29,513 nucleotides of DNA. Source: a virus. The notes under the pieces are model-generated. The model saw only the letters and a program-made list of their open reading frames with translations, was not told where the DNA came from and ran no database searches. The stretch spans positions 1 to 29,513 of the IMG/VR virus record IMGVR_UViG_3300021959_000269; one strand, given 5' to 3'. Made by a program: the position numbers and the translations under genes. Positions 2,573-13,408 of this stretch are shown here, in pieces; positions within the stretch are counted from its first letter, which is position 1, and every line of letters starts with the position of its first letter.

Positions 2573-2600
2573 TTGACTTTAAAATTAAATATGATATAAT
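2573..2600 (+). promoter_or_regulatory. Sigma-70-type promoter upstream of the structured RNA
   Basis: TTGACT (2573-2578), a 16-bp spacer and TATAAT (2595-2600), with an extended -10 TG at 2592-2593. The start point would be near 2607. No gene follows for 360 bases. The transcript would first cross an A/T-only tract and then the structured RNA region, so the RNA is the natural product. Confidence 0.8.
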
Positions 2601-2633
2601 ATGTTTTATATAAACTAATTAACTATGTTAAAG

Positions 2634-2689
2634 TATTTTTATTATTATTATTATAATATTATTAATAAATATATATATAATAATATTTA
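2634..2689. other. 56-bp pure A/T tract, candidate DNA-unwinding element
   Basis: Positions 2634-2689 contain no G or C. TTA/ATT triplets dominate the first half and alternating AT steps the second. Such a tract melts easily. It lies directly downstream of a strong promoter and upstream of the replication operon. T7's primary origin likewise has promoters followed by an A/T-rich stretch of about 61 bp. Origin function here is an inference from layout. Confidence 0.5.
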
Positions 2690-2693
2690 CAGG

Positions 2694-2898
2694 TTTCGGA
2701 CAGGTGTTATTGCAAGGCACTTGTTTCTACTGGCTGAACAACAATAAGCTAGTTGTAAGGCAATGGTTTTAATCAGTATGACCAAATGGTTGAGAGATTA
2801 AGATTATGTACTGAGTAGTGTATCTATGAACTGGATAGCTCACGGAAGGTTGCAGGTAAATCCATAAGTCCTGCGTAGAAATCCGAAAATAATTTTTT
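2694..2898 (+). ncRNA. Candidate structured non-coding RNA, about 200 nt
   Basis: No ORF covers this stretch, but it folds into a closed multibranch structure. Closing stem: 2694-2700 with 2882-2888 (TTTCGGA/TCCGAAA). Hairpins: 2701-2706/2718-2723, 2730-2735/2747-2752, 2767-2774/2796-2803 (with an inner hairpin 2780-2783/2788-2791), 2812-2816/2838-2842 (with 2821-2824/2834-2837 above it), and 2852-2856/2870-2874. The first loop (2707-2713) can pair with 2760-2766, a 7-bp pseudoknot, and loop 2738-2741 with 2753-2756. Several stems use G-U pairs that would be A-C mismatches on the other strand, so the + strand is the RNA. It ends in a T6 run (2893-2898). A consensus promoter lies upstream. No known RNA class was recognised. 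Confidence 0.7.
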
Positions 2899-2901
2899 AT
2901 C

Positions 2902-2930
2902 TTGACAATATTTAATTGTTATGATATAAT
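2902..2930 (+). promoter_or_regulatory. Sigma-70-type promoter of the replication operon
   Basis: TTGACA (2902-2907), a 17-bp spacer and TATAAT (2925-2930), with TG at 2922-2923 giving an extended -10. The predicted start near 2937 leaves a leader of about 29 bases with a strong ribosome binding site before the SSB gene. It shares the sequence TTATGnTATAATAC with the promoter at 1549-1577. Confidence 0.88.
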
Positions 2931-2965: not shown

Positions 2966-3394
2966 ATGCCAACAGTTGAAGGAAAAGCGTATTGGGCTAG
3001 TGTGACTAGACCGAATACAACATTCGACCCTGTGTACCAAGTCGACTTAGCTATAAGCGATGATGCTGCTGATAGCTTTAAGAAGGAAGGTATCGCAGTT
3101 AAACAAGACGATAGAGGTAATATCGTTAAGTTTAAACGTAAAGTCAGTCGAGCTGACGGAAATAAAAATCCACCGCCAAGATTGGTGGACTCTGCCAAAA
3201 ACTCTATCGATACGTTGATAGGTAATGGCTCTACTGTAAGGGTTATGTACAAACCTTTTGAGTGGAAGTTTGCCGGTAAGTCTGGCAAAAGTCTTGACCT
3301 ACAAGCTGTACAAGTCTTAGACCTAGTGCCTTATGGCGAGGACTTTGATGTAGCTAGTGGGTACGTTGCGGAGAATAGTAACGAAGAATTTTAA
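2966..3394 (+). CDS. Single-stranded DNA-binding protein, T7 gp2.5-like
   Basis: This 142-residue protein would coat single-stranded DNA during phage replication and recruit the polymerase and primase-helicase. It has a beta-rich OB-fold-like body with basic and aromatic residues (KFKRKVSR, YKPFEWKF). Its acidic C-terminal tail ends in phenylalanine (ENSNEEF), the hallmark of T7 gp2.5-type SSBs, whose tail contacts partner proteins. Start: AAGGAGG at 2954-2960, five bases before the ATG. It is the first gene after a consensus promoter and is followed by primase-helicase and polymerase, the expected partners. Length is somewhat shorter than T7 gp2.5 (232 aa). Confidence 0.85.
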   Translation: MPTVEGKAYWASVTRPNTTFDPVYQVDLAISDDAADSFKKEGIAVKQDDRGNIVKFKRKVSRADGNKNPPPRLVDSAKNSIDTLIGNGSTVRVMYKPFEWKFAGKSGKSLDLQAVQVLDLVPYGEDFDVASGYVAENSNEEF

Positions 3395-12956: not shown

Positions 12957-13373
12957 TTATTTTATTTTAATTGTCTTTGGTTTTTTTTCTTCGGGTAGAT
13001 TTAATTTCATATCTACAATAAGAACACCATCTTTAAATGTAGCATTATCTACTTCAAGATGTTCTGCCAAAGTCCATTGTCTTTTAAATGCTCGTTGAGC
13101 AATACCTCGATGTACAAAATTGTCATCATCTTTTTCTGAAGTTTTTGCAGAGATAGTTAAGATACTTTCTTTTACCTCAACATCTATATCCTCTTTTGAA
13201 AAACCTGCCAACGCCATTTCTAATTGATAGTTTTCTTTATCAATTTTCTTGATGTTGTAGGGAGGGTAGTTAGGTGTCTCATAATGAGACAACGTAGACA
13301 ACTGGTCAAAGATATTATCAAATCCAACTGTCATATTTCTAAATGGGTCAAAGACCCCTGTAGGTAGGTTCAT
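12957..13373 (-). CDS. Small heat shock protein, Hsp20/alpha-crystallin family
   Basis: A 138-residue IbpA-like holdase chaperone that would bind unfolding proteins without ATP. The alpha-crystallin domain spans roughly 35-125, with Y-Q-L-E-M-A-L-A-G-F-S-K-E-D-I-D-V, the R-x-F-x-R segment (F-K-R-Q-W-T-L) and the G-V-L-I-V-D motif. The C-terminal I-K-I motif for oligomer assembly is present. ATG 13373 is chosen because AAAGGAG lies just before it; an upstream in-frame ATG (13388) sits in that leader. It has its own consensus promoter at 13444-13472. Hsp20 genes are known from marine T4-like phages; here it may protect virion assembly. Confidence 0.93.
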   Translation of the reverse strand: MNLPTGVFDPFRNMTVGFDNIFDQLSTLSHYETPNYPPYNIKKIDKENYQLEMALAGFSKEDIDVEVKESILTISAKTSEKDDDNFVHRGIAQRAFKRQWTLAEHLEVDNATFKDGVLIVDMKLNLPEEKKPKTIKIK

Positions 13374-13408
13374 GTTAGCTCCTTTCATAAAGCGAGTTAT
13401 TATAATAA

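Follow-up and report, generated by a model that had tools for sequence, protein, structure and literature searches.

The window analyzed here, a 29,513-nt stretch of viral DNA, contains a 402-nt non-coding gap (2564-2965) ahead of its replication genes, which raises the question of what this gap encodes. The source is a pelagiphage fragment related to HTVC115P (81% identity over 39% of the first 25 kb). The genes 3′ of the gap encode a gp2.5-like single-stranded-DNA-binding protein (SSB), a primase/helicase, a DNA polymerase, a Cas4-like exonuclease, and a ribonucleotide reductase. Elsewhere in the window, an Hsp20-type heat-shock protein gene lies on the - strand at 12957-13388 (PHROG 432, E 5.1e-44). 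An earlier reading of the sequence (the original prediction) had correctly pointed to a sizeable non-coding gap at this place. It had proposed there a closed multibranch RNA with pseudoknots, its own promoter and a terminal T6, matching no known class, which might be a host-directed regulatory RNA, a replication primer or a ribozyme.

We analyzed the fold of the region and its conservation. The + strand folded at -55.7 kcal/mol (z = -2.72), and 3 of 200 shuffled sequences folded equally well. In an alignment of 17 window-type sequences, 97.9% of the cells at 51 base pairs were paired, compared with 32-43% in slid controls, and two-sided changes were observed at 19 of the 51 pairs. Similarly, 10 RNAs of the type found in the T4-like pelagiphage HTVC008M showed 98.8% pairing over 57 pairs, with two-sided changes at 11. 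The original prediction had named missing compensatory changes in homologous phages as its refutation; such changes were found in both alignments, and they back the closed multibranch form with five hairpin domains. A structured RNA of ~195 bases is encoded at 2694-2888. A 40-aa ORF (2625-2747) overlaps this RNA, and a small ORF is annotated over the HTVC008M copy, as might be expected of a protein-coding stretch. However, the start of the HTVC008M ORF falls within the promoter, small insertions and deletions occur between relatives, and the strong covariation in both pelagiphage groups contradicts a coding or chance-fold reading, which we regard as hardly credible.

Coordinates of the RNA, its helices, and its flanking elements in the window
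Feature	Position	Strand	Basis
Sigma-70 promoter 5′ of the RNA (TTGACT-16-TATAAT, extended -10)	2573-2600	+	11/12 consensus matches; retained whether or not a relative has the RNA
A+T-rich leader with palindrome, between promoter and RNA	2601-2693	+	Position kept in relatives with or without the RNA
manA-type structured RNA, helices P0-P6	2694-2888	+	Covariation in 17 window-type and 10 HTVC008M-type RNAs; Rfam manA 30.0 bits at 2701-2884; window-type model
Helix P0	2694-2699/2883-2888		
Helix P1	2700-2706/2718-2724		
Helix P2	2725-2730/2875-2880		
Helix P3a	2733-2735/2759-2761		
Helix P3b	2738-2742/2752-2756		
Helix P4a	2763-2774/2796-2807		
Helix P4b	2780-2783/2788-2791		
Helix P5a	2818-2820/2841-2843		
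Helix P6	2852-2856/2870-2874		
P5-P6 pseudoknot, 5′ strand	2832-2836	+	Complementarity with changed letters in L255, HTVC008M type, and cyanophage manA
P5-P6 pseudoknot, 3′ strand (partner of 2832-2836)	2860-2864	+	As for the 5′ strand
T6 run 3′ of P0, candidate termination point	2893-2898	+	Sequence; no canonical terminator found; not conserved in L271, L255, and others
Sigma-70 promoter of the SSB/replication operon, between operon and RNA	2902-2930	+	12/12 consensus matches; 11-12/12 promoter at the same place in nine relatives listed
gp2.5-like SSB gene, first of the replication operon	2966-3394	+	PHROG 112, E 2.3e-10

The proposed 7-bp closing stem is present in the window; 6 bp of it are kept among relatives, the outermost pair being lost in L277. 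The letters of P0 differ between the two pelagiphage groups (TTTCGG/CCGAAA versus TATCTTA/TAAGATA), and P4 forms one hairpin interrupted by an internal loop, backed by covariation in both groups. As for the pseudoknots, the proposed 7-bp pairing of 2707-2713 with 2760-2766 was rejected because it excludes the covarying helices P3a and P4a and fails in several relatives (4 of its 7 pairs in 2-5 of the 17 sequences). The second one, 2738-2741 with 2753-2756, turned out to be part of the ordinary hairpin P3b. The possible loop contact, by comparison, corresponds to the P5-P6 pseudoknot of the Rfam family manA, and its pairing is kept with different letters across groups: UGGAU:AUCCA in the window, UGUGA:UCACA in L255, AUUGG:CCAAU in the HTVC008M type, and CUGUA:UACAG or AUGUA:UACAU in cyanophage manA. 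This pseudoknot carries a question mark in the original manA paper (PMC2864571).

Judged by sequence and model comparison, the window RNA is a distant relative of manA (RF01745), which removes the statement that it belongs to no known class. The Rfam scan that had been advised listed no RNA family at gathering thresholds, because the manA score lies under the cut-off of 55.2 bits; under permissive settings, the manA model matched along its full length (model positions 1-192) with 30.0 bits (E 4.7e-6 in 411 bases). The RNA is therefore termed a divergent relative and not a curated member. The HTVC008M type ranged from 26 to 35 bits, with HTVC008M itself at 25.9 bits (E 7.7e-5 in 401 bases) and L263 the best of its relatives (34.9 bits, E 1.5e-5 in 39 kb). 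The window-type RNAs of L271, L277, L255, L113, and L265 stayed below the manA reporting limit in larger scans, so that the manA link rests on the window itself and the HTVC008M type. A model built from the 17 window-type RNAs alone matched all eight HTVC008M-type RNAs searched (97-114 bits, E 1e-27 to 5e-32), and besides these and the window nothing reached 7 bits; therefore, both pelagiphage groups share one RNA. A joint pelagiphage model missed cyanophage manA with default filters; with filters off, its best match fell on the single cyanophage manA copy tested, although weakly (E 0.004).

The family alignment and covariation further showed P1, P2, P3, P5, and P6 in manA order with conserved unpaired letters. 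In both manA and the pelagiphage RNA, helices P1-P6 follow in order around a closing P2, letters are conserved around CUGAAYAA...UAAGG and GGUA...UCC, the P5-P6 loop pseudoknot is present, a sigma-70 promoter lies just 5′, and the carriers are marine phages. In contrast, the pelagiphage RNAs have an additional closing helix, P0, and one long P4 hairpin in place of the branched P4 domain of manA; the window RNA also differs in its low score, its 93-nt leader, and the promoter 3′ of it. The range of manA is thus extended to SAR11 phages, and covariation is now given for a subtype below the Rfam cut-off. A pattern search for CTGAAYAA...GTAAGGNNATGG in viral contigs gave 67 matches that look like chance, except for contigs of the window's own clade. 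An Rfam scan of the records behind these matches returned no manA, and it is uninformative for weak members since it also missed the window's copy. A scan of a genome collection yielded three contigs only. An anti-Shine-Dalgarno role for the CCUCCC strand of manA was dropped, as that P2 strand reads GUAGAA in the window.

In HTVC008M, an RNA of this kind immediately precedes the gp32 SSB gene. Like the window RNA, it shows full-length homology, possesses P0, and adjoins an SSB gene. However, its SSB is gp32 and not gp2.5-like, the two being unrelated by sequence, and its promoter abuts the RNA without an A+T-rich leader; the same arrangement is seen in cyanophages. The annotated HTVC008M 'hypothetical protein' gp008 (L109:4441-4611) overlaps the promoter and the RNA, and it is probably not a gene.

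Next, the transcription signals and the gap in near relatives were analyzed. The promoter claimed for the RNA exists, although it ends 93 nt before it, and a second, stronger match directly 3′ of the RNA had been overlooked. In each of the nine relatives listed, as in the window, an 11-12/12 promoter lies 26-36 nt ahead of the SSB gene. The T6 at the RNA's end is likewise present, but no canonical terminator was recognized 3′ of the window RNA, and the T-run is missing in several relatives. In near relatives, the SSB promoter, the upstream promoter, and the A+T-rich leader are all retained, while the content between leader and SSB promoter varies. This slot holds no RNA in, for example, L079-L083, one other stretch in HTVC115P and L099, and another in L084. 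In L271, L274, L275, L277, and L280, it holds the manA-type RNA followed by 235-565 nt before the SSB gene, a stretch that includes the SSB promoter along with additional modules of structured appearance; L255 and L262 have a small ORF separating RNA and SSB gene.

The extra modules of those five relatives occur in varying combinations: module B (AACTTGGTTGAC...CACCCAAGTT), module C (GAGTAGTACC...AAACTACTC), and module D (CGTAAGGAG...CTACTGACGAGTAG...CTCCTTACG). An Rfam scan of them in L271, L275, and L277 matched no RNA family. The conserved non-coding stretch in the same slot of HTVC115P (L002:7685-7850) and L099 is different and has module C in common with them; Rfam gave a chance-level match only.

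The A+T-rich palindromic leader is kept in all relatives, with the RNA behind it or not, and it is a candidate replication origin or structured leader. As at T7-like origins, a promoter and an A+T-rich palindromic leader here adjoin replication genes, so the RNA might serve as a primer or R-loop transcript of an origin. We consider this improbable, since promoter and leader are kept in relatives without the RNA, and the cyanophage RNA occurs at many unrelated places without the leader.

In the published description, manA is a candidate riboswitch found in what may be the 5′ UTRs of genes related to photosynthesis, chaperones, nucleotides, and mannose or fructose, and both Rfam and that paper class it as cis-regulatory (PMC2864571). 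One manA lies on a Bifidobacterium megaplasmid (PMC10832533). The literature searched contained no functional study of manA since the 2010 description and no report from pelagiphages.

The cyanophage copies were then surveyed. Each of the 12 annotated cyanophage genomes carried exactly one manA, in a search whose stricter filters could lose weak second copies, and the locus and neighbours varied among these genomes. In P-HM1 and P-HM2, listed as one species, manA is at different places: beside gp23 and followed by a terminator-like hairpin in P-HM1, and ahead of gp32 in P-HM2, the reciprocal gaps being short and without manA. The two thus form a natural contrast of one copy with a terminator behind it and one leading gp32. 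The following counts are those among the matches listed, and they are not independent because the contigs came from an exact-pattern search and are related to each other. A match to the sigma-70 promoter consensus with no more than two mismatches was found in 111 of 116 distinct regions upstream of manA, compared with 26 of 480 control stretches, and manA mostly started 3-6 nt after the -10 box. The largest downstream class was gp32 (24 of the 79 copies with an identified downstream ORF). A terminator-like hairpin followed none of these 24 copies, against 26 of the 55 not before gp32 and 5.8% of random stretches; terminators on both sides were seen in 7 of 67 distinct copies.

These results bear on whether the RNA is a cis-acting leader, that is, a riboswitch or protein-binding element controlling the SSB gene behind it, as its family label would imply. 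An SSB gene of one of two unrelated families is the neighbour in three settings (the window, HTVC008M, and the 24 cyanophage copies). For the gp32-leading copies of HTVC008M and cyanophages whose spacing to the start codon is listed, that spacing is 29-38 nt, and the lack of terminators behind the 24 cyanophage copies, together with pelagiphage copies beside SSB, could reflect cis control. T4 gene 32 has an autoregulated, pseudoknot-bearing structured leader ahead of its SSB gene, as the window RNA is structured and ahead of one. However, a promoter separates the window RNA from SSB, no Rfam match to the T4 leader was obtained, and many manA copies are not beside SSB at all. The window RNA is therefore not placed as the 5′ UTR of a gene thought to be controlled, although upstream read-through across it into SSB may occur. 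Moreover, the window and nine relatives have a separate SSB promoter 3′ of the RNA, and up to 565 nt, including other modules, can intervene between RNA and SSB gene; P-HM1 gp32 lacks manA; the remaining cyanophage copies are followed by unrelated genes or by terminators; and a riboswitch serving many targets would not usually occur just once in a genome. Control in cis thus appears rather unlikely to us.

We lean instead towards the reading that the window encodes a manA-type phage RNA gene, driven by sigma-70 and acting in trans on a factor common to different hosts. An RNA gene fits better than a switch because manA is single-copy, has its own promoter and frequently a terminator, has variable neighbours, differs in place between P-HM1 and P-HM2, and in the window-type phages is followed by a second promoter before SSB. 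Of the signals of such a gene, the promoter is present, and a terminator is found 3′ of about half of the non-gp32 cyanophage copies and none is recognized 3′ of the window RNA. That manA is single-copy, has a promoter to itself, and changes neighbours speaks against the cis-regulatory label; on the sequence evidence, manA is more likely a small RNA gene than the gene switch of that label. The folded RNA itself would be the product, transcribed from a strong host-type (sigma-70) promoter and accumulating as a discrete RNA; it would act in trans without switching the adjoining gene. The target would be some factor common to very different hosts, presumably a component conserved among hosts; the ribosome, RNA polymerase, and the RNA-processing machinery are examples, and to name any one of them would be a guess. 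Should manA act in trans, many ocean phages would be targeting a host component common to cyanobacteria and SAR11.

In its wider form, the proposal is that marine phages of cyanobacteria and SAR11 carry manA as an RNA gene that acts in trans, is present in one copy, can relocate, and in HTVC115P-like pelagiphages fills a two-promoter slot that is elsewhere empty or occupied by other undescribed structured RNAs; we give this an even chance. Among the three functions first offered, the host-directed one, taken to include other action in trans, would fit best, and no positive evidence was found for a replication primer or a ribozyme. The compact pseudoknotted fold of ~195 nt with conserved unpaired letters would suit a self-cleaving or otherwise catalytic RNA, but no Rfam ribozyme family matched and the anatomy bore no sign of a cleavage site, making catalysis very improbable. 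As phage-carried structured RNAs without an assigned role, GOLLD and ROOL offer a comparison in manner of working; they are much larger than the window RNA, and neither was matched by Rfam here.

Two arrangements recurred around cyanophage manA. Upstream (for example, in L121, L131, and L132), the -35 box is often embedded in a terminator hairpin at which transcription from upstream stops. Downstream (for example, in L132, L134, and L144), a recurring hairpin, GACCTAAGATGCAACT...GGGCAGATGGTC, is followed by a T-run, and its internal-loop letters are conserved.
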